From: Olivibacter sp. SDN3
GTDB lineage: Bacteria > Bacteroidota > Bacteroidia > Sphingobacteriales > Sphingobacteriaceae
Direction: 5' to 3'
NCBI RefSeq assembly: GCF_014334135.1
Contig: NZ_CP060497.1
Span: 1,550,001-1,614,000, forward strand
DNA: 64,000 nucleotides
A program made the translations under genes and the position numbers. Shown piece by piece: positions 54,032-64,000 of this stretch (position 1 is its first letter; each line of letters starts with the position of its first letter). The notes under the pieces were generated by a model. That model was not told where the DNA came from. It saw only the letters and a list, made by a program, of their open reading frames with translations, and ran no database searches.

Positions 54032-56983
54032 ATGCGCATTTCCTTTTTGGCCATTGTTAGCTTATCAATTACCTTAATGGTAGGACTCGTCTACTCCAGA
54101 CAACCATCCCTTGGTAATTCGTCCTATGGGCAAAGCAATGCGTTTAATAAAAGGATAGGCGTTAACGCCTCCGGACAGGTGCCATTCTCCGGTATACCTC
54201 TTGTACAGAACTATACCAAAGCAACATATTTAGCAGCAAATCAGAATTGGTCGGTATCCTGTGGAGAAAACGGTATGCTTTATTTCGGTAATAATGATGG
54301 GCTGCTCAGTTTTGATGGCCATTGGTGGGAATTATACCATATGCCAGGTAATATCATTGTTCGAAGTGTCGCTACGGATAAAAATGGCCGAACATACACC
54401 GGGGGACTTCGTGAATTCGGTTACTGGGAAAGAGACTCTTTCGGACAGCTAGGTTATCACTCGCTCAGTAATCAGTTAGAAGAAAAGCATAGGTTAAATG
54501 ATGAGGTGTGGAAGATCTACGTAAATGAAGAACAAGTTATATTTCAGAGTTTCTCGTCCATATACGTTTATAAAGAGGGTAAATTATTGCATATTGATGC
54601 TCCCAGCCCGATGCTTTTTCTATTCGAGGTAAATGAGCGGTATTTTGTTGAAGCGCTTTCCTCAGGCTTATACGAACTGAAGAATGATAAGTTAAGAAAG
54701 GTGCTTTCTTCCGGTGACTTTGGTAATTCGCGTATCCTCACGATATTATCGAATGATAACGGTAATTTTCTTATCGGCACAGCCCAGCAGGGTATTTACG
54801 AATGGGATGGTCAATCGATCAAGCCCTGGCAAAATGACGCACAAGAAGATCTGCGGAGGTACCAGCTGAATAACGGACTAAAATTACGGGAGGGCCATTA
54901 TGCTTTTGGAACAATCCTTAACGGTCTTTATATTTTAAACGACAAAGGGAGAAAAGTACTCCACATTAATAAAGAAACAGGTCTTCAAAACAACACCATA
55001 CTTAGTCTACAGCTTGATAAACAGCAGAATATATGGGCGGGTTTAGATAATGGTATCGATCGTATAGAAATAAATTCTCCCATATATTATTATAACGACA
55101 AAGCAGGGCTTTTAGGTACCGTATATGCCTCGATCGTTTATCAAAACAAACTATATCTGGGAACAAACCAAGGGCTGTATTGTAGCGACTGGTCTGCGGA
55201 AAAAAGTAAATCCCTAAATTTCAAATTGCTAGAAGGCTCGCAAGGACAGGTCTGGGATCTTAGCCTTATCGACAACGAATTGCTATGTGGGCATAATAAT
55301 GGCACATTTAAGGTTAACGGAGATCAACTGGAGTGGCTTTCGGATGTTACGGGAGGATATGTAGTGCAAGCGCTCCAACAACAGGAATCTCGCCTAATTC
55401 AAGGAACATATACTGGTCTGGCGCTTTTTGAAAGACATCAGCATGAATGGAAATTTGTTCATAAGATTAAAAATTTCGAAGAGCCTGTACAATATCTTCA
55501 GCAGGTGGATAACAATAAGTTTTGGATAAGCGGCTATAAAGGTTTATACATGTTACAACTGAATGCAACGCAGGATTCCGTTGTTTACAGTCGCCTATAC
55601 CAGGAGAAAGATGGTTTACCAAAGACACCCTATGTAAATGTGTTTAATCTGGCTGGTAAGCTTGTTTTTTCTACAGATGCTGGTTTCTACCTCTATGATG
55701 AAATAGCCGATAAATTTCATGTGTATGCACAGCTAAATGAACGTCTTGGCACCTTTGCGAATGCGAATAAGGTGATACCGGCAGACGCTGGAAATTATTG
55801 GTTTATTAGAAAGGGAAATGTGTCGCTTGTAAGTTTTGGAGAAGCAGGAAAGGTTACGATTGATTCGATGCAGTTCTCCCCCTTAAGTAACCGAATGTTA
55901 AACTATTACGAGAATGTAAATAAATTAGCTGATGATCTCTACCTGATCAGTCTCGATGATGGTTTTGCGCTATATCGAAAAAATGATCGTACGGTGAATG
56001 ATCTTGACTTAAGTAAGCCGCTGTTACAACGGGTGGAAGATATAACGGATAGTACCGCACGGTTAATTAACTTTGCATCAACAGCCGACTTAGAAATTGC
56101 TTACAATAAAAATAACATCCGGCTCACTTATGCCCTGCCTCACTACAGCTCCAACACCGTCCTGTTTCAGTATATACTTGAAGGATATTCGAAGAATTGG
56201 TCGGAGTGGACGGACATACCGCAGCGGGAATTTACAAATTTAGCACGTGGCAAATACGTTTTTAAACTTCGGGCAAAAACCGTTGATGGTAAAATTACGC
56301 CTGTATCGAGTTTAGCCTTCCGTGTTTTGGCCCCATGGTACCTATCCTGGCCGGCTTGGATGGTATACGGCTGTTTGCTCATTATAGGAGCAATAGGTGT
56401 TCGAAAATACTATCAGTATAAATTACGTAAACATCGCGAACATGTACAGCAGAAGCTGAAATTGGAGCAGGAAGAACGACTGCGACAGGAAGCACAGGCA
56501 AACGAACAACGCTTAATGCAGTTAAAAAATGTACAACTTGAAAAGGAATTGGCGGGAAAAAACCGGGAATTAGCTAATTCGGCTATGAATATCGTGTATA
56601 AAAACGAGTTGCTCAATAATGTGCATGATGAACTTTCACAATTAAAAGACAGCGAGGGACGTAAGCTTTCTGGCGAACAGTTAAAAAAGATAAGTAAGAT
56701 AATCGACGATGCGAGGAGTGACGAGCGCGATTGGAACCTGTTCGAAGAAAGTTTCAATGAGGCTCACGAAAACTTCTTTAAAAAATTGAAACAAACTTAT
56801 CCAGAGCTCGTGCCCAACGACCTGAAACTTTGTGCCTACCTAAGAATGAATATGAGCAGTAAGGAAATCGCATCATTACTTAATATTACCACCAGAGGAG
56901 TAGAAATTCGGCGCTACCGCTTACGGAAGAAATTGAACTTGCAACATGATCAGAACCTATCCGAGTTTCTGATGGAAGTGTAG
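54032..56983 (+). CDS. Membrane-bound transcription regulator with propeller, triple-Y and LuxR-type HTH domains
   Basis: The 983-residue protein has a signal anchor, two seven-bladed two-component-regulator propellers (about 60-690) and a Y_Y_Y domain (about 710-780; FQYILEGYSKNWSEWTDI). A membrane helix (about 785-805), a coiled coil and a C-terminal HTH (about 915-980; MSSKEIASLLNITTRGVEIRRYRLRKKL, core SSKEIASLLNITTRGVEIR) follow. It is a hybrid two-component-like sensor without kinase or receiver domain. Such proteins usually control nearby SusC/SusD genes, which lie 768 nt downstream. Confidence 0.85.
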   Translation: MRISFLAIVSLSITLMVGLVYSRQPSLGNSSYGQSNAFNKRIGVNASGQVPFSGIPLVQNYTKATYLAANQNWSVSCGENGMLYFGNNDGLLSFDGHWWELYHMPGNIIVRSVATDKNGRTYTGGLREFGYWERDSFGQLGYHSLSNQLEEKHRLNDEVWKIYVNEEQVIFQSFSSIYVYKEGKLLHIDAPSPMLFLFEVNERYFVEALSSGLYELKNDKLRKVLSSGDFGNSRILTILSNDNGNFLIGTAQQGIYEWDGQSIKPWQNDAQEDLRRYQLNNGLKLREGHYAFGTILNGLYILNDKGRKVLHINKETGLQNNTILSLQLDKQQNIWAGLDNGIDRIEINSPIYYYNDKAGLLGTVYASIVYQNKLYLGTNQGLYCSDWSAEKSKSLNFKLLEGSQGQVWDLSLIDNELLCGHNNGTFKVNGDQLEWLSDVTGGYVVQALQQQESRLIQGTYTGLALFERHQHEWKFVHKIKNFEEPVQYLQQVDNNKFWISGYKGLYMLQLNATQDSVVYSRLYQEKDGLPKTPYVNVFNLAGKLVFSTDAGFYLYDEIADKFHVYAQLNERLGTFANANKVIPADAGNYWFIRKGNVSLVSFGEAGKVTIDSMQFSPLSNRMLNYYENVNKLADDLYLISLDDGFALYRKNDRTVNDLDLSKPLLQRVEDITDSTARLINFASTADLEIAYNKNNIRLTYALPHYSSNTVLFQYILEGYSKNWSEWTDIPQREFTNLARGKYVFKLRAKTVDGKITPVSSLAFRVLAPWYLSWPAWMVYGCLLIIGAIGVRKYYQYKLRKHREHVQQKLKLEQEERLRQEAQANEQRLMQLKNVQLEKELAGKNRELANSAMNIVYKNELLNNVHDELSQLKDSEGRKLSGEQLKKISKIIDDARSDERDWNLFEESFNEAHENFFKKLKQTYPELVPNDLKLCAYLRMNMSSKEIASLLNITTRGVEIRRYRLRKKLNLQHDQNLSEFLMEV

Positions 56984-57190
56984 CGCAAATCTGACAAACG
57001 CGACAGAAGCGTTAAGCCTGTAAATCATAATTATCTTCTCCATCACTATGGCGTTTTATTCAAATGGCTCGTATGTTGTTTACTTCCAGCATTCCCCTCT
57101 AATTAAAGATGATTGGTAACCATTTTAAGAAAAAACGCTAAAATAAAAGTAGTAAGATTTTATAATAAACCTATAAAGATACTCATGTTG

Positions 57191-57283
57191 ATCGTAAACT
57201 TACCGTTTTTTCACCGTTTATTGACCGTATAATTTACGATCAATAAACGGTGAAAAAACGGCCAAAAAACGATAAATTTGGCC
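57191..57283 (+). repeat. Nested inverted repeats between the regulator and SusC
   Basis: A perfect 22-bp inverted repeat has arms at 57203-57224 and 57240-57261 (each containing CACCGTTTATTGA or its complement) around a 15-nt loop. An 8-bp pair ATCGTAAA (57191-57198) and TTTACGAT (57233-57240) interleaves with it, so the two folds exclude each other or form a pseudoknot. A further hairpin GGCCAAA/TTTGGCC spans 57260-57283. It lies 207 nt after the regulator stop. Role unknown: operator, RNA switch or terminator. Confidence 0.6.
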
Positions 57284-57420
57284 TTGTATATACTTTCTTT
57301 ATAATTTTTTTATTATTTCATTTCTGGTTATTTGGTTAAAATAGGATTGTTTTAGCTATAACTGTTAGTCAAAAAAATTGGCAGGAAATAAAAAAATTAA
57401 GCGGAGTACAATTTCCATAC

Positions 57421-57482
57421 TACATCATTGCCTCTCAGGTACAAATGTGTATTTTCAACACTAATGCCTTTATTTTGAGAGG
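57421..57482 (+). repeat. Conserved nested-dyad element upstream of SusC, copy 1
   Basis: TACATCATTGCCTCTCA (57421-57437) is followed 38 nt later by TGAGAGG (57476-57482), complementary to CCTCTCA. Inside are GTGT (57447-57450) and ACAC (57458-57461), an inner pair. The same layout with identical 38-nt spacing occurs at 63397-63458 before the second SusC. T-rich sequence follows. Confidence 0.65.
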
Positions 57483-57599
57483 TTTTCTATTTTTCAAATA
57501 CCTTTAAATTAGCAGGTTATGTTTTTTATGAGAAATCGAAATATTAAATGATGTAATTATGTTGTAGAAAATATATACCTACCTGTTGATCAAAATATG

Positions 57600-57620
57600 C
57601 ACATTTGCTGCCGTTAACCA
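57600..57620 (+). promoter_or_regulatory. Candidate SusC promoter, copy 1
   Basis: CACATTTG (57600-57607) is followed after 5 nt by GTTAACCA (57613-57620). The second SusC has CACCTTTG and GTTAACCA at nearly the same spacing. CACATTTG departs from TAnnTTTG in the first base. Transcription would start near 57613, giving a leader of about 140 nt. Confidence 0.4.
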
Positions 57621-57751
57621 AAACGAAATCAATAAAATAGTGAACCAAATGATGATTAACTTATAGGAGTTCTTAAAGAAAGAGCCAATCTAAACTAAAA
57701 CGATCAAAACTTTTTTATTAAACAATTTATCAACCAATTAAATCAAGTGTA

Positions 57752-60700
57752 ATGAGAATTTTTACTTATTGCCTAATGGTATGTTGTGTGCTATGTATGA
57801 CGGCATTTGCACAGCAGGAAACTACCATCAGCGGATCGGTTACCGATGCCACAACAGGTGAATCGATTCCCGGAGTAACTGTTACTGTTAAAGAAACAGG
57901 GAGAAGCGTACAGACGGATGTCAATGGCAGGTATATGGTGCGTTCGAGTGGCGCGGAAACTTTGCAATATAGCTATATAGGTTATCGAACGCATGAAGAA
58001 TCCATTACCAACCGCAGTGAAATTAATGTTTCGCTGGTTACCGGTGATGAACAACTGGATGAAGTTGTCGTAGTGGGTTACGGTACTCAGCGTAAACAGG
58101 ATGTAACCGGTTCCATTGCAAGTGTGCAAGGCTCGGAATTACTCAAACAGCCGGTACAAACGCCTACACAAGCCTTACAGGGAAAAGCAGCCGGTGTGCA
58201 GATTATAGCATCTGGCCAACCCAACGAACAACCACAGGTTCGTGTAAGGGGTACGGGTTCCATGCTAGCTGGAGCAGAGCCCCTATATGTGGTAGATGGC
58301 GTGCTCAGTGATGATATCCGTAATATTAACAACGCTGATATTGTAAGCGTAGATGTGCTCAAGGATGCTTCCGCGGCCATTTATGGCGTAAGAGCGGCCA
58401 ATGGTGTCATCATTATTACCACCAAAAAAGGGCAGGAAGGCACAGTAAAGGTCGATTACTTTGGCCATGGCGGATTTCGGCAAGCGGCCAATCTCGTGAA
58501 AATGGCCAACAGGGAACAGTATATTGACTATATAAGAACAGCCGCTCCGGCAAGATACAATAGCTTGGAAGCCGATCTGGAAAGCGGACTGATATATGAC
58601 GGGAGCACCAATTGGTACGACGAAGTCTTGCGGAATGCTTTTCAGACGAACCAGAATATCTCATTTTCAGGTGGCTCGGAGCGAAGTACATTTTATGTAA
58701 GTGCCGGTATTATTGCAGAGGATGGTATTATCCAAACGAATAACTTTAACCGGTTTAATTTCCGGGCGAACAACGACGTGAAGATTTCGGAAAAACTCCG
58801 TTTTTCATCACAGCTAGGGCTCTCTAGGGCAAACGAACGGGCCGTAGAAGTGGGCGATAACTATCGGAACGTATACCGGGCGTCACCGCTCGTTCCGGCA
58901 CGTGTAGGCGATCGCTTTGGTAATCCTGCAGCTTACCAAAGCGTAGGTAATCCAGTGGCCTCCTTGGAAACCAGGGATGAAGGGATTGTGAATAACCGTA
59001 TACAGGGAAATATCGCTTTAGACTATAAACCCATTAAAGTACTGACCTTGCGTTCGGCTTTTAACACAGACGTCGTTTTCAACAATGAGCGCGTTTACGG
59101 ATATAAAATTTTAAACAGTGATGAATATTATTCACCGGGCGGAGGCTCGCAACAGCGGTTAAACAGTACACTCAGTGTGGAGCGGTCTAACTCACTACGG
59201 TATATCTGGGACAATACCGTTACTTTTGATAAGTCTTTTGATAAACACCAGCTAACCGTAGTGGGCGGGTCGGTGACGGAGAAATTCAGGTCGGACATGC
59301 TTAGCGGCAGCCGCATTAATATTCCAGAAAGTAAAGACCAATGGTACCTGGGCCTGGGGGATCCGGATAACTCGCTCACCAATAACAGTACGGGAGATCT
59401 CTTTACCCGTCAGTCTTTTTTGGGAAGAGTCAATTATAATTTCGACGGACGTTACTTGCTTTCTGCATCGTTACGTGCCGATGGCAGCTCGAAATTTCGG
59501 GAGAAGTGGGGCATGTTTCCTACCTTAGGATTAGGCTGGGTACTGTCTGAGGAGTCCTTTATGCAGAACCAAAATGTGTTTGATTTTCTTAAGTTTCGGG
59601 GAAGTTACGGTATACTCGGTAATGATAATATAGGTACTGCTTTATATATCGTTACAGGGGGTATTAACATTCCCTATTTTTTCGATAATGGCATTTCGCT
59701 GGGAACCGCCATACAAGATATAAAGGATGGTAACTTGCGTTGGGAAAAGACAGAGCAGATCGATTTTGGAGTTGAATTTTCACTATTCAATAACCGATTG
59801 AAAGGAGAGGCCGATTATTATAATAAGCGAACAAGTGATGCGTTAGCCAGGGTATTGATTCCGGCTATTTTTGGTGATCCAGATAACACCTATGTAACGA
59901 ATACCGCATCGTTCCGAAACAGGGGAGTCGAGTTCGGCTTGAATTGGAGCGATCAGGTGGGCTCGGATTTCACCTATAGACTGGGAGGCAATATTACCTT
60001 CAATCAGAACAGAGTGATCGGACTGGCGGGCGGGCAAGCGATTTCTGCGGGAGGTGTAGGACAGCAGGGTGTAACTACCCGCACAGATAACGGACAGCCG
60101 GTAGGAAGTTTCTACCTGTTAAATGCCATCGGCATTTTTCAATCACAGGAAGAGATCGATAATTCGCCCGTTTATGGCAATCGGGATAATGTACAGCCGG
60201 GAGACCTGAAATACGAAGACGTAAACGGTGATGGTATAATTAATGCAGATGACCGGATTTTCGCTGGATCTTATCAACCGAAATTTTATTTCGGATTCAA
60301 TGTTGGATTTGAATATAAAGGCTTCGACCTCTCAGCTGATTTTTACGGGAATGTGGGCAATCAGATCTATAATGGTAAAAGAGCCTTTAGGTACCAACCA
60401 ACCGATAATATCGAAGCTTCTTTTGCGCAAAATAGATGGACGCCGGAGAACCCCTCACAAACCGACCCGCGCATAATCGACACCGCAGTACCAGCTTCCA
60501 CTTATTTTATGGAATCCGGTGATTTCTTGCGATTGAATAACCTAACCGTTGGTTATAGCTTACCTTCGGCACTACTGAGCAAAAGCAAATGGATTAATAA
60601 TTTAAGGCTTTTTGCTACCTCGCAGAACCTATTTACGCTACAGAAATTCAGTGGCTTCAGTCCTGAACTCCGGGGAGGCGATATATTGGCTTCCGGGATC

Positions 60701-60760
60701 GAATTAAACATTTATCCTACAACCAGAACATTCGCTTTTGGGATAAGTGCAGGGTTTTAA
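57752..60760 (+). CDS. SusC-family TonB-dependent outer-membrane receptor
   Basis: The 1002-residue protein has a signal peptide (cleavage near CMTAFAQ), a carboxypeptidase-regulatory-like domain (about 25-100; GSVTDATTGESIPGVTVTVK), the TonB box and plug start (LDEVVVVGYGTQRKQDVTG) and a 22-strand barrel with the YVVDGVLSDDIRNINNADIVSVDVLKD motif (core DIVSVDVLKDASA). It ends in FAFGISAGF. SusC proteins import oligomers with a SusD lid. SusD follows after 18 nt. Confidence 0.95.
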   Translation: MRIFTYCLMVCCVLCMTAFAQQETTISGSVTDATTGESIPGVTVTVKETGRSVQTDVNGRYMVRSSGAETLQYSYIGYRTHEESITNRSEINVSLVTGDEQLDEVVVVGYGTQRKQDVTGSIASVQGSELLKQPVQTPTQALQGKAAGVQIIASGQPNEQPQVRVRGTGSMLAGAEPLYVVDGVLSDDIRNINNADIVSVDVLKDASAAIYGVRAANGVIIITTKKGQEGTVKVDYFGHGGFRQAANLVKMANREQYIDYIRTAAPARYNSLEADLESGLIYDGSTNWYDEVLRNAFQTNQNISFSGGSERSTFYVSAGIIAEDGIIQTNNFNRFNFRANNDVKISEKLRFSSQLGLSRANERAVEVGDNYRNVYRASPLVPARVGDRFGNPAAYQSVGNPVASLETRDEGIVNNRIQGNIALDYKPIKVLTLRSAFNTDVVFNNERVYGYKILNSDEYYSPGGGSQQRLNSTLSVERSNSLRYIWDNTVTFDKSFDKHQLTVVGGSVTEKFRSDMLSGSRINIPESKDQWYLGLGDPDNSLTNNSTGDLFTRQSFLGRVNYNFDGRYLLSASLRADGSSKFREKWGMFPTLGLGWVLSEESFMQNQNVFDFLKFRGSYGILGNDNIGTALYIVTGGINIPYFFDNGISLGTAIQDIKDGNLRWEKTEQIDFGVEFSLFNNRLKGEADYYNKRTSDALARVLIPAIFGDPDNTYVTNTASFRNRGVEFGLNWSDQVGSDFTYRLGGNITFNQNRVIGLAGGQAISAGGVGQQGVTTRTDNGQPVGSFYLLNAIGIFQSQEEIDNSPVYGNRDNVQPGDLKYEDVNGDGIINADDRIFAGSYQPKFYFGFNVGFEYKGFDLSADFYGNVGNQIYNGKRAFRYQPTDNIEASFAQNRWTPENPSQTDPRIIDTAVPASTYFMESGDFLRLNNLTVGYSLPSALLSKSKWINNLRLFATSQNLFTLQKFSGFSPELRGGDILASGIELNIYPTTRTFAFGISAGF

Positions 60761-60778
60761 TTGATAGATTGTAAAGAC

Positions 60779-62296
60779 ATGAAAAAATATAACAAAACAA
60801 ACAAGTTGATTGCAGGCGCATTTTTTGTTGGTTTAGCAGCAATGTCCTGCAGTAAGTTCTTGGAAGTGGCGCCTCAAGGGGCAATCACGGAGCAGGAAAT
60901 AAGTACCAATCCTTCTGCAGCGCAAGACTTGGTAACCAGCGTATATAACATCATGTGGCAGGGAGGTCTGCATGGTGTAGGGTTTGTTGGGATGACCAAT
61001 ATTGCCTCAGATGATGCCGATAAGGGTAGCCACCCAACAGATGGTGCAGCAACCATGGGTAGGTTAGATGACCTTTCACAATGGGATCCAAGTATTACCA
61101 CTTTGGATCAAATATGGTCGGGACATTTTGCAGCCATTGCACGGGCAAATCAGGCACTGGCATATATCACACTGAGTCCGGCCGATGAAATTGTGAAGAA
61201 TCGTTTAACGGGCGAGGTCCGCTTTTTACGAGCGTATTTTTACTTCAATTTGGTTCGATTTTTCGGTGGGGTGCCCAAAATTGATGAAGTCCCGCCACTG
61301 GAAGAAATCAATAACCCCAGCTATCAGCAAAAAGCCACGAAAGAAGAGATTTATGAACTCATTGTTGGCGATTTAGAATTTGCAGTGGAAAACCTGCCAA
61401 TTAAAGGCGATGGGGGGACGCAGTTGGGCAGGGCTAATAAGGGGGCGGCCACCGGTATGTTGGCGAAGGTATTTCTCTACCAGCAAAATTGGCAAAGGGC
61501 CTATGAGTTGAGTAGTCAACTTGTTAACGGACAAGTAGGCAATTATGATTTACTGGCGAACTATGAAGACATTTGGCGGCATGTAGGGGCAAATAGTGTC
61601 GAATCGCTCTTTGAAGTCCAAACAGGCGTGAACGCAGCCTGTACTGCGGCAATCGATAACTATGCCTTCAGTCAGGGCCCCCGTGGTTCGGGGCCTGATA
61701 ACCTGGGCTGGGGCTTCGGAACACCGTCGGAGAGTCTAACAAACGCCTATGAAGAAGGTGATCAACGAAGGGAAGCGACCATCATTTTTATTAATCCAGA
61801 TGGTAACACCGTTTTGTGGGATGGCTACACTTTTCCGGGAACAACTACAACGAATGAGCGTTATAATTATAAGTCGTACCATAGCCGCGTGCAGGAGCCA
61901 AATTGTGCGGCGGCGGGTAGGCTCCCTAAAAATCTGCGCATCTTGCGCTTTGGTGAGGTTTTACTGATTCACGCAGAAGCAGCGTTGGCGACTGGAAATG
62001 TAGCGGAAGCAATGGAAGATATCAACAGGTTGAGATTACGTGCGGGAATCGCTCCTTTAAGTATGGCGGATATTAGCCGGGAGGCTATTTGGAATGAAAG
62101 GCGCGTTGAGCTCGGAATGGAGCACGATCGATACTTTGATTTAGTAAGGCAGGAAGCCATACAGCCCGGAAGAGCGGTACAAGCCTTTGAAGCCGACGGA
62201 AAAGTTTGGGTGAAAGGAAGACATGAGCTTTTCCCTATACCCCAGAACCAGATACAGTTGAGCGAAGGAGAATTGGCTCAGAATCCAGGATACTAA
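60779..62296 (+). CDS. SusD/RagB-family nutrient-binding outer-membrane lipoprotein
   Basis: The ATG at 60779 (MKKYNKTNKL) follows an in-frame TTG and gives 505 residues. The lipobox is AAMSC. The protein has the SusD TPR-like start (FLEVAPQGAITEQEI), NLVRFFGGVPKID, and the C-terminal signature IWNERRVELGMEHDRYFDLVR (core ERRVELGMEHDRYFDL). It captures ligand for the SusC channel. Ligand identity is not visible from sequence. Confidence 0.95.
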   Translation: MKKYNKTNKLIAGAFFVGLAAMSCSKFLEVAPQGAITEQEISTNPSAAQDLVTSVYNIMWQGGLHGVGFVGMTNIASDDADKGSHPTDGAATMGRLDDLSQWDPSITTLDQIWSGHFAAIARANQALAYITLSPADEIVKNRLTGEVRFLRAYFYFNLVRFFGGVPKIDEVPPLEEINNPSYQQKATKEEIYELIVGDLEFAVENLPIKGDGGTQLGRANKGAATGMLAKVFLYQQNWQRAYELSSQLVNGQVGNYDLLANYEDIWRHVGANSVESLFEVQTGVNAACTAAIDNYAFSQGPRGSGPDNLGWGFGTPSESLTNAYEEGDQRREATIIFINPDGNTVLWDGYTFPGTTTTNERYNYKSYHSRVQEPNCAAAGRLPKNLRILRFGEVLLIHAEAALATGNVAEAMEDINRLRLRAGIAPLSMADISREAIWNERRVELGMEHDRYFDLVRQEAIQPGRAVQAFEADGKVWVKGRHELFPIPQNQIQLSEGELAQNPGY

Positions 62297-62338
62297 TAGC
62301 GTAATGACTGCTAGACTGAGAATGACAAACAAATAATA

Positions 62339-63346
62339 ATGAAGAATTTGATGAACGTAAGAAAAAAAACAGTGTTATACCTTATGCTCTGTTTCCTGCT
62401 GGTGGCTTGCCAACAGGAAACAGAGGAGATTACTTTTGTGTTACTCCCCGATACGCAAACCTATGCGGAAAAATACCCCGAGATCTTAGATGCCCAGATT
62501 AGCTGGATTGAAGAAAATACGGAAAACATTGACCTAGTGTTGCAGCAAGGCGACCTCACACAAAACAATAATGATATCGAGTGGCAACGCGTGCAAAAGA
62601 GCTTTCAACGCCTAGATAACAAGGTGCCCTATGTATTGGCGGTGGGTAATCATGATATGGGAAGCGGACCAGGGAATTTTGCTGATGAAAGAAACACAAC
62701 CCTGTTCAACAAGTATTTCCCCCTAGACAAAATGTCGGCTTTACCGGCCTATGGAGGAACATTTGAAGATCAAAAGTTAGATAATACCTATTATGTCCTA
62801 GAAACCGGCAGACAGAAATGGCTGATCCTTTCTTTGGAGTTCGGCCCTAGAGAAGCGGTGTTGGAATGGGCCAATGAAATAGTTGCCAAACATCAGGATA
62901 AATTGATTATTCTAAATACACACAGCTATATGTACTCGGATAGTACTCGGCAAGGGTATGGTGATAATTGGCGGGCACAAGGTTATGGCGTTGGGCAGGA
63001 TGAAGGACAAGACGCGGTAAACGATGGAGAACAGATTTGGGAGAAATTTGTGAAAAAACATCCCAATGTACGTTTCGTGTTCTCCGGTCATATCTTAAAC
63101 AATGGCGTAGGAACCCTGGTAAGTGTAAATGATGCCGGTTTTCCGGTTTATCAATTTCTTGCTAACTATCAAGAAGGAGTAAAAGGGTCTGTCAAAGGCG
63201 GGAATGGTTGGTTGAGGATCTTAAAATTAAGACCAAAGGAAAAGCGTATAAAAGTAGAAACCTATTCCCCGTATATCAACGAATATATGGATGATGAAGC
63301 GCATAGTTTTCACATAAAAGAGGTATTTCTGCGGAGTGGATATTGA
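62339..63346 (+). CDS. Calcineurin-like metallophosphoesterase lipoprotein
   Basis: The 335-residue protein has a lipoprotein signal (LLVAC) and metallophosphoesterase motifs: LLPDTQTY (DxQ variant of DxH), QQGDLTQ, VGNHDMGSG, NTHSYMY and FSGHILNNG. It is 42 nt downstream of susD, so it is probably in the same operon and exposed at the cell surface or periplasm. It may cut phosphate from the molecule captured by SusD; the substrate is unknown. Confidence 0.88.
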   Translation: MKNLMNVRKKTVLYLMLCFLLVACQQETEEITFVLLPDTQTYAEKYPEILDAQISWIEENTENIDLVLQQGDLTQNNNDIEWQRVQKSFQRLDNKVPYVLAVGNHDMGSGPGNFADERNTTLFNKYFPLDKMSALPAYGGTFEDQKLDNTYYVLETGRQKWLILSLEFGPREAVLEWANEIVAKHQDKLIILNTHSYMYSDSTRQGYGDNWRAQGYGVGQDEGQDAVNDGEQIWEKFVKKHPNVRFVFSGHILNNGVGTLVSVNDAGFPVYQFLANYQEGVKGSVKGGNGWLRILKLRPKEKRIKVETYSPYINEYMDDEAHSFHIKEVFLRSGY

Positions 63347-63396
63347 AGATCGTGAAATAGCGACTCTTTTTTAAATGAAAATACCTCACTAGACAG

Positions 63397-63465
63397 TACA
63401 TCATTACCTCTCATCGTTAATTGTGTACTTGATACACAATTTAACGATTTCTGAGAGGTGTTTTT
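63397..63465 (+). repeat. Conserved nested-dyad element upstream of SusC, copy 2
   Basis: TACATCATTACCTCTCA (63397-63413) pairs through CCTCTCA with TGAGAGG (63452-63458) after exactly 38 nt. Inner stems TCGTTAA/TTAACGA and TTGTGTA/TACACAA extend the hairpin almost fully, and a T-run follows (63461-63465). As a hairpin it could terminate the metallophosphoesterase transcript. The shared outer motif with copy 1 suggests a further role. The rest of the 347-nt gap holds the candidate promoter and no gene. Confidence 0.7.
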
Positions 63466-63586
63466 AATTGTTAAACGTTTGATTTATAGTTGTTTGATTT
63501 TTTTTATGTGTATTGGTTGAGAAAAAAAAGTAGATTGATGTATGAATGTTGAGGATAACAATATGAAGTTTTCCAAAACAACCTAG

Positions 63587-63606
63587 CACCTTTGTTTTGT
63601 TAACCA
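63587..63606 (+). promoter_or_regulatory. Candidate SusC promoter, copy 2
   Basis: CACCTTTG (63587-63594) is followed after 4 nt by GTTAACCA (63599-63606), matching copy 1 at 57600-57620. It lies 128 nt after the nested dyad; copy 1 lies 117 nt after its dyad. Confidence 0.4.
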
Positions 63607-63693
63607 TAGACGACAGGGAATGCCGTAGGTAGTTAAAACCTAAAATATGTCTACTTCGTCTTTAACTAGTATTAACCAATAAAGAATTAAACA

Positions 63694-64000
63694 ATGAGGA
63701 ATAAATTTACTTATTACCTACTGGTAGTATTTATTCTTTTTGCAAGTAGTGTTTTTGCACAAGATGAAATTACTATTCAGGGTAAGGTGGTTGATTCACT
63801 TGATGGTCTGGGTATACCGGGTGTAAGTGTACTGATCAAAGGAACCACCACGGGAACACAAACGGACGCGGAGGGCAATTACCGTATTACTGCGTCATCT
63901 GATGCCACACTAACATTTAGCTTTATTAGCTACAAAAGGCAGGAAATACCTATCAATGATCAAACCACTATTAATGTAACCATGGAAAGCGAGAGTGAGC
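63694..64000 (+). CDS. SusC-family receptor, N-terminal part only
   Basis: The gene begins at the ATG at 63694 and runs off the right edge after 102 codons. A signal peptide (ending SSVFAQ) is followed by the carboxypeptidase-regulatory-like domain (GIPGVSVLIKGTTTGTQTDAEG). The first codons closely match those of the SusC gene at 57752 (both contain TTTACTTATT), suggesting a fairly recent duplication. Confidence 0.92.
   Translation, partial: MRNKFTYYLLVVFILFASSVFAQDEITIQGKVVDSLDGLGIPGVSVLIKGTTTGTQTDAEGNYRITASSDATLTFSFISYKRQEIPINDQTTINVTMESESE

Follow-up and report, generated by a model that had tools for sequence, protein, structure and literature searches.

Two genes for SusC-type receptors in a 64,000-nucleotide stretch of the genome of Olivibacter sp. 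SDN3 (NZ_CP060497.1, positions 1,550,001 to 1,614,000; hereafter the window) are each preceded by a copy of an element that, judged from sequence comparison, is probably a two-site DNA operator through which the neighbouring SusR-like regulator activates the SusC promoter of one sugar-uptake locus. The lasting parts of this element are site A (CTACATCATTACCTCTCA) and site D (TGATGTAnTAATGTnGAG), which lie in opposite orientation, with D mostly 139-163 bp downstream of A and just upstream of a promoter-like box preceding SusC. TACATCA in site A and TGATGTA in site D are inverted copies of each other. No earlier description of the element was found in the open-access literature searched.

Conserved sites and their spacing

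A first-pass annotation of the window had drawn attention to a smaller unit, the order TACATCATT-R-CCTCTCA-N38-TGAGAGG, reported at 57421-57482 and 63397-63458 together with an inner GTGT/ACAC pair at constant offsets, T-rich sequence behind both copies, a second shared motif and comparable distances to the SusC start codons. Sequence checks bore out this description: the order is exact at both places, the inner pair has the same offset at 57447-57461 and 63423-63437 (the full GTGTA-N5-TACAC palindrome being present in copy 2 only and degenerate in copy 1), T-rich sequence lies 3′ of both dyads, the second motif is site D at 57549 and 63536, and the dyads end 270 nt and 236 nt before the SusC starts at 57752 and 63694, respectively. 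With up to three mismatches allowed, the pattern had no further matches in the window and none in 100 shuffles. In the whole genome (6.12 Mb, one contig) the two copies were the sole matches at a gap of 20-50 nt, and CCTCTCA-N10-40-TGAGAGG dyads were absent apart from them.

The genome search that had been suggested as a check gave a divided answer. The full dyad has no copies beyond the window pair in its own genome, in 59 relatives or in the named genomes (from which its own genome was possibly excluded), whereas the left part alone, the 18-mer CTACATCATNNCCTCTCA, occurs at 57 places in 56 of 146 family genomes, and the backwards pattern at none. Because the full dyad is confined to two copies and its left part is widespread, the proper unit is site A plus site D rather than the dyad with N38. 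Across the named public genomes the full pattern (gap 30-45) gave no matches since its right arm, TGAGAGG (site C), is genus-specific: it is present in three of four genus relatives, the fourth having TGATGTA in that place, and an exact partner of the CCTCTCA arm was found in only 3 of the 164 elements compared below, namely the two window copies and one stray. The letters of site A (CTACATCATTnCCTC) are likewise kept in three of the four relatives, in which site D lies about 140 bp past A and the inner palindrome (site B) reads GTGTA-N5-TACAC. On these comparisons the TGAGAGG arm is a genus feature, and the repeated dyad is a genus-level, local embellishment of a larger operator-like element that is real, strongly conserved and attached to one sugar-uptake locus.

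Beyond the genus, the 18-mer was detected in 8 of the 11 family members of a phylum sample of 394 genomes and in 3 of the 383 others. Scanning named genomes with the site A 19-mer ACTACATCATTACCTCTCA returned at least 120 stretches, mainly from Pedobacter and Mucilaginibacter among the 80 stretches listed by name, which also include Parapedobacter, Solitalea, Sphingobacterium, Arcticibacter, Adhaeribacter, Rufibacter and a few more genera. This range points to Sphingobacteriaceae as the probable family of the window. These matches were found by the letters of site A alone; SusC lies downstream in 111 of the 121 listed, and the C-terminus of the regulator lies at most 1.8 kb upstream in 112. 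Nine of the ten matches lacking SusC have less than 400 nt of sequence left, and the tenth is L187, which, like the out-of-family 18-mer matches G490, G455 and G243, falls inside a long open frame and looks like a chance match.

For comparison of sites and spacings, elements whose best site D had more than four mismatches were excluded, which removed five of 74 regulator or 18-mer rows (L066, L098, L100, L110 and L117) and four of 121 19-mer rows (L187, L203, one of two in L219, and L220). Of the 188 elements that passed, window copies included, 24 were dropped as duplicate or too short, leaving 164: 32 fetched through the regulator, 37 from 18-mer matches, 93 from the 19-mer scan and the two window copies. 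The regulator lies upstream in 156 and SusC downstream in 157 of them, figures that are partly selected because 32 elements were fetched through the regulator. Within the four-mismatch filter, site D shows no mismatch in 82 elements, one in 32, two in 30, three in 10 and four in 10. In the wrong-strand control the best match had 5-8 mismatches in all but one of the 164 elements and 3 mismatches in that one; D read backwards matched with 2-4 mismatches in 101, a control that is not clean because D reads almost identically backwards. Used as a genome-wide regulon finder, site D gave 35 matches at up to two mismatches versus 22 for the control, and no further targets were found in the Olivibacter genome, where site A lies upstream at the window copies only among the 20 site D loci examined. 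A mobile element was also considered and is unlikely, there being two copies only in the genome, at a position fixed relative to SusC.

The distance from A to D in the 164 elements ranges from 118 to 165 bp and clusters near 141, 150 and 162 bp (139-142 bp in 13 elements, 143-147 in 2, 148-153 in 71, 154-158 in none, 159-165 in 69, and below 139 in 9), and the median identity of the interior is 0.44 in the 150 class and 0.37 in the 162 class. Because the spacing classes persist while the intervening DNA diverges, a DNA operator is favoured over an RNA hairpin or a terminator. A periodogram of 66 spacings, from a set with five more weak rows excluded (L101, L109, L113, L116 and L118), has its maximum at 10.5 bp (R 0.724). 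Seven independent pairs differing by at least 5 bp are 8, 10, 11, 11, 12, 17 and 28 bp apart, and in the closest pair Mucilaginibacter gossypii (150) and M. kameinonensis (139) differ by 11 bp. It is likely, if not proven, that the A-D spacing changes in steps of full turns of the helix. Looping operators of the lac and gal type have such stepwise spacing between two distant sites as their hallmark, and the present element also has two distant sites, with a spacing that seems to behave in this way; the lac and gal looping proteins are repressors, whereas the present regulator would be an activator and is predicted to be membrane-bound.

Downstream of D, the best -7-like box is placed at D+54/55 in 156 of the 164 elements (ties broken towards 55), with TT at D+55/56 in 114 and TTG at D+27/28 in 134. 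Bacteroidetes promoters have the shape TTTG, about 20 bp, TAnnTTTG, and the boxes after D, read as a predicted promoter, match this shape.

The neighbouring regulator

Pfam analysis of the regulator encoded upstream of copy 1 revealed Y_Y_Y (8.8e-10), Reg_prop, GerE (at the cut-off) and Sigma70_r4_2, and its Y_Y_Y region resembles 3v9f and 4a2l, solved sensors of hybrid two-component systems (HTCS). The N-terminus is hydrophobic; a second hydrophobic stretch near residue 780 was seen by eye only and falls under the cut-off used for hydropathy. The protein is a one-component regulator with a Reg_prop/Y_Y_Y sensor and a C-terminal helix-turn-helix (HTH) encoded beside susC and susD, as in SusR-like regulons, and we call it SusR-like on the basis of domain architecture and gene order. 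It shares its propeller/Y_Y_Y kind of sensor with HTCS and differs from them in having no Pfam match to a histidine kinase or a receiver domain.

Three types of regulator have been proposed to control the polysaccharide loci of Bacteroidota, and the SusR-like type is one of them (PMC3878776). For Bacteroides, the same study gives an untested prediction of SusR-like operators as direct repeats 67 or 77 bp apart, and it puts the direct repeats of HTCS motifs at a mean distance of 21 bp (Ravcheev et al. 2013, PMC3878776). Like those SusR-like operators, the present element pairs two conserved sites across a long spacer that is not conserved, and it too stands before genes under SusR-like control; unlike them, with 67 or 77 bp between the centres of their direct repeats, it has oppositely oriented sites mostly 139-163 bp apart and belongs to another family, the comparison covering orientation and spacing (PMC3878776). 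The element shares with the Bacteroides operators the logic of two distant sites, and neither their orientation nor their spacing.

Orthologues of the regulator are encoded in all four other genus genomes searched, and in each the best orthologue is followed by a diverged element before a SusC-sized frame. Among 121 family genomes searched, 71 have an orthologue of at least 800 bits, the next match scoring 510, and the 18-mer is present in 47 of these 71 versus none of the 50 without the regulator (Fisher 6e-16, kinship not corrected). The elements of L066, L070, L071 and L220 precede SusC although the 1.5 kb upstream of them contain no regulator; because these unlinked elements still precede SusC, site A tracks the SusC promoter and not the end of the regulator gene. 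A check for the regulator elsewhere covered L066, L070 and L071, whose genomes all carry the orthologue on another contig; the further unlinked named records are L179, L220 and L221. The operator also provides a searchable signature, by which a regulator could be assigned to loci that lie apart from its gene.

A second regulator match, with 29-34% identity and probably a paralogue, is found in many family genomes. Between a more distant paralogue in one relative (29% identity, L017) and the next large frame there is no TACATCA, and the same stretch contains repeated TGTAGGG/TGTAGTGG-like letters, perhaps the paralogue's own operator.

In the class at large, TACATCA-N4-TACATCA occurs at 50 places in 40 of 396 genomes, 8 of these places being in the family, against 19 matches for a hand-counted control. 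Thirty loci, all outside the family, were examined; a regulator homologue is encoded in 12, and SusC as well in 8 of those; 29 control places, from the window's genome only, have the regulator at none and SusC at 2. Family f26 offered four loci next to regulator homologues, of which L286 and L287 contain TACGTCA half-sites; in L289 and L292 the 330 nt read lack TACGTCA and TACATCA alike. The HTH helix of the TACGTCA pair has a threonine (ETHRYR) where the other aligned regulators have isoleucine, leucine or valine. Operator and regulator specificity may have changed together here, a lead from two cases.

Proposed mechanism and alternative readings

The sequences show the sites with their order, spacing and neighbouring genes, and the fact that they co-occur with the regulator; we infer binding, activation, looping, membrane anchoring and the kind of ligand as follows. 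Sites A and D would each consist of tandem TACATCA-like half-sites about one helical turn (10-11 bp) apart, on opposite strands, the second half-site being our own reading. With its start about 54-55 bp before the TTTG of the -7-like box, D would place an activator where it could contact RNA polymerase, and A would lie upstream of D at a distance of 12-15 helical turns. Probably as a protein of the inner membrane, the regulator would sense an oligosaccharide through its propeller and Y_Y_Y domain, and its LuxR-type HTH would bind both A and D and bridge them in a small DNA loop, upon which susC transcription would start. TGAGAGG may serve as an additional half-site of the genus and GTGTA-N5-TACAC as a separate site. 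A Bacteroidia-wide grammar for propeller/Y_Y_Y/HTH regulators can be put forward more tentatively, and we are somewhat doubtful that it holds throughout: tandem TACRTCA half-sites one turn apart would form two clusters, with orientation and distance varying between lineages and the distance kept in helical phase, and the inner-membrane regulator would hold a 12-15-turn loop over the susC promoter. With fixed letters and measurable spacing classes, a SusR-like operator of this kind makes both the HTH half-site and looping by a membrane-bound activator directly testable.

Several observations weigh against operation of the element by its neighbouring regulator through a phased loop. The exact 18-mer is missing from 24 of the 71 genomes with the regulator, some of which have diverged forms, and 12 fetched loci have no site A at up to four mismatches, although in four cases the genome carries the 18-mer at another place. 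An association with one gene would also be compatible with another protein reading A and D. The periodogram is weak when each distinct spacing is counted once (R 0.38 at 10.0 and 0.36 at 10.5), the genus-collapsed phasing test gives p 0.0066 for 18 values collapsed by hand, and independent events are few, a tree of 117 regulator C-termini showing 11 spacing-class changes. The pairs 17 and 28 bp apart, both of genus g20, are off phase, 7 of the 164 elements have spacings of 131-137 bp that do not fit the phase of the main classes, and the named records with such out-of-step spacings include Arcticibacter and Rufibacter. The TTG at -33 is absent from both window copies and from the four genus relatives.

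That a protein other than the neighbouring regulator reads the operator is nevertheless unlikely. The internal GTGTA-N5-TACAC site does suggest a second regulator acting there, but the co-occurrence of 18-mer and regulator in the family, the three unlinked cases with the regulator elsewhere in the same genome, and the tandem half-sites beside regulator homologues in other families all speak for the neighbour. Residual ancestry after duplication is scarcely credible as the sole source of the likeness between the copies. The order of regulator, copy 1, SusC1/SusD1/phosphoesterase, copy 2 and SusC2 does suggest an inserted paralogous block; the two SusC proteins are only 36% identical, hence no recent duplication, yet site A differs between the copies at just 2 of 18 positions, and its letters recur in other genera.

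Of the three roles entertained in the first-pass annotation, the regulator operator has held up, what persists across the family being two distant inverted sites, in their letters as well as their spacing, and the RNA hairpin and the terminator have not. A hairpin or leader, in which the arms pair in the transcript and regulate susC by attenuation or stability, is improbable. The window copies looked like hairpins since both fold better than shuffles (z -2.4 and -5.7). At least five of the seven bases of the CCTCTCA box are paired in 5 of 6 genus copies, and TACATCA and TGATGTA could close a larger stem, seen in the copy 1 fold. In the 158 elements outside the genus, however, z has a median of -0.75 and falls below -2 in 26, pairing of the box is seen in 20, and with its exact partner arm so rare the hairpin pairing is not kept there. 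A transcript from the -7-like box would moreover exclude the element, because the box sits downstream of it, and an Rfam search of 56900-64000 gave no family at gathering score and six weak matches, none overlapping the copies. We consider it highly improbable that the copies are intrinsic terminators guarding each locus. The T-rich stretches, and the start of copy 2 about 50 nt beyond the upstream stop codon, would suit a terminator; copy 1 starts 437 nt past the regulator stop codon, the dyad is not kept across the family, and a terminator scan of both copy regions (loops of 3-8, T run directly after) found no site.

Features of the locus

Table 1. Features of the window around the two copies of the element
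Feature	Position	Strand	Remarks
SusR-like one-component regulator gene	54032..56983	+	Hydrophobic N-terminus, propeller (Reg_prop), Y_Y_Y, C-terminal LuxR-type HTH; Pfam, hydropathy
Copy 1 site A (distal), CTACATCATTGCCTCTCA	57420..57437	+	Sequence match, family consensus
Copy 1 site B, degenerate palindrome GTGTATTTTCAACAC	57447..57461	.	Sequence; intact form scanned genome-wide
Copy 1 site C, TGAGAGG	57476..57482	+	CCTCTCA half of site A in inverted form; feature of the genus
Copy 1 site D (proximal), TGATGTAATTATGTTGTA	57549..57566	+	Orientation opposite to A; A-D 129 bp
Copy 1 -7-like box, CACATTTG	57600..57607	+	51 bp past D start; usual -33 position lacks TTG
SusC gene 1	57752..60760	+	TIGR04056, 854 bits; Pfam
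SusD gene 1	60761..62296	+	Pfam
Copy 2 site A, GTACATCATTACCTCTCA	63396..63413	+	
Copy 2 site B, intact palindrome GTGTACTTGATACAC	63423..63437	.	
Copy 2 site C, TGAGAGG	63452..63458	+	
Copy 2 site D, TGATGTATGAATGTTGAG	63536..63553	+	A-D 140 bp
Copy 2 -7-like box, CACCTTTG	63587..63594	+	
SusC gene 2, start	63694..64000	+	Runs past the window end (L018:1695-4721)

A calcineurin-type phosphoesterase gene (Pfam) at 62339-63346 lies between SusD1 and copy 2, and the N-terminus of its product looks by eye like a lipoprotein signal. The regulator of each of the four relatives has behind it, in its own direction, a single SusC-sized frame (1005-1069 aa), a frame of 500-508 aa and then enzyme-sized frames, all judged by size, and no second SusC-sized frame in that direction was seen in the stretches examined. 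Because the relatives show one SusC-sized frame, copy 1 with SusC1, SusD1 and the phosphoesterase looks inserted between the regulator and an older operon. Copy 2 is followed by SusC, SusD, a PF10091 enzyme, two GH43 enzymes, a GH3 enzyme and DUF4397. Starch, assumed at first to be the substrate from the likeness to SusR, was dropped because the locus carries PF10091, GH43 and GH3 enzymes; PF10091 is a family that we take to cover GH144 beta-1,2-glucanases.

The genome contains 12 occurrences of the inner palindrome (GTGTANNNNNTACAC), including the one at 63423-63437 in the window, versus 3 of the reversed pattern. A receptor gene encloses one of the 12, and the genes downstream of the palindrome include those for pyruvate kinase, phosphofructokinase, fructose-1,6-bisphosphatase and a SusC-type receptor (Pfam). 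The simplest reading is that GTGTA-N5-TACAC is a candidate site for a global carbon regulator, which is probably also its role within the element.

Between the regulator gene and copy 1 lies an inverted repeat (57203-57261) with exact 22-nt arms at 57203-57224 and 57240-57261. Among 322 fetched loci it was present only in the 8 that cover the same place, and it was not listed by the repeat finder. Four of the six weak Rfam matches fall on this repeat.

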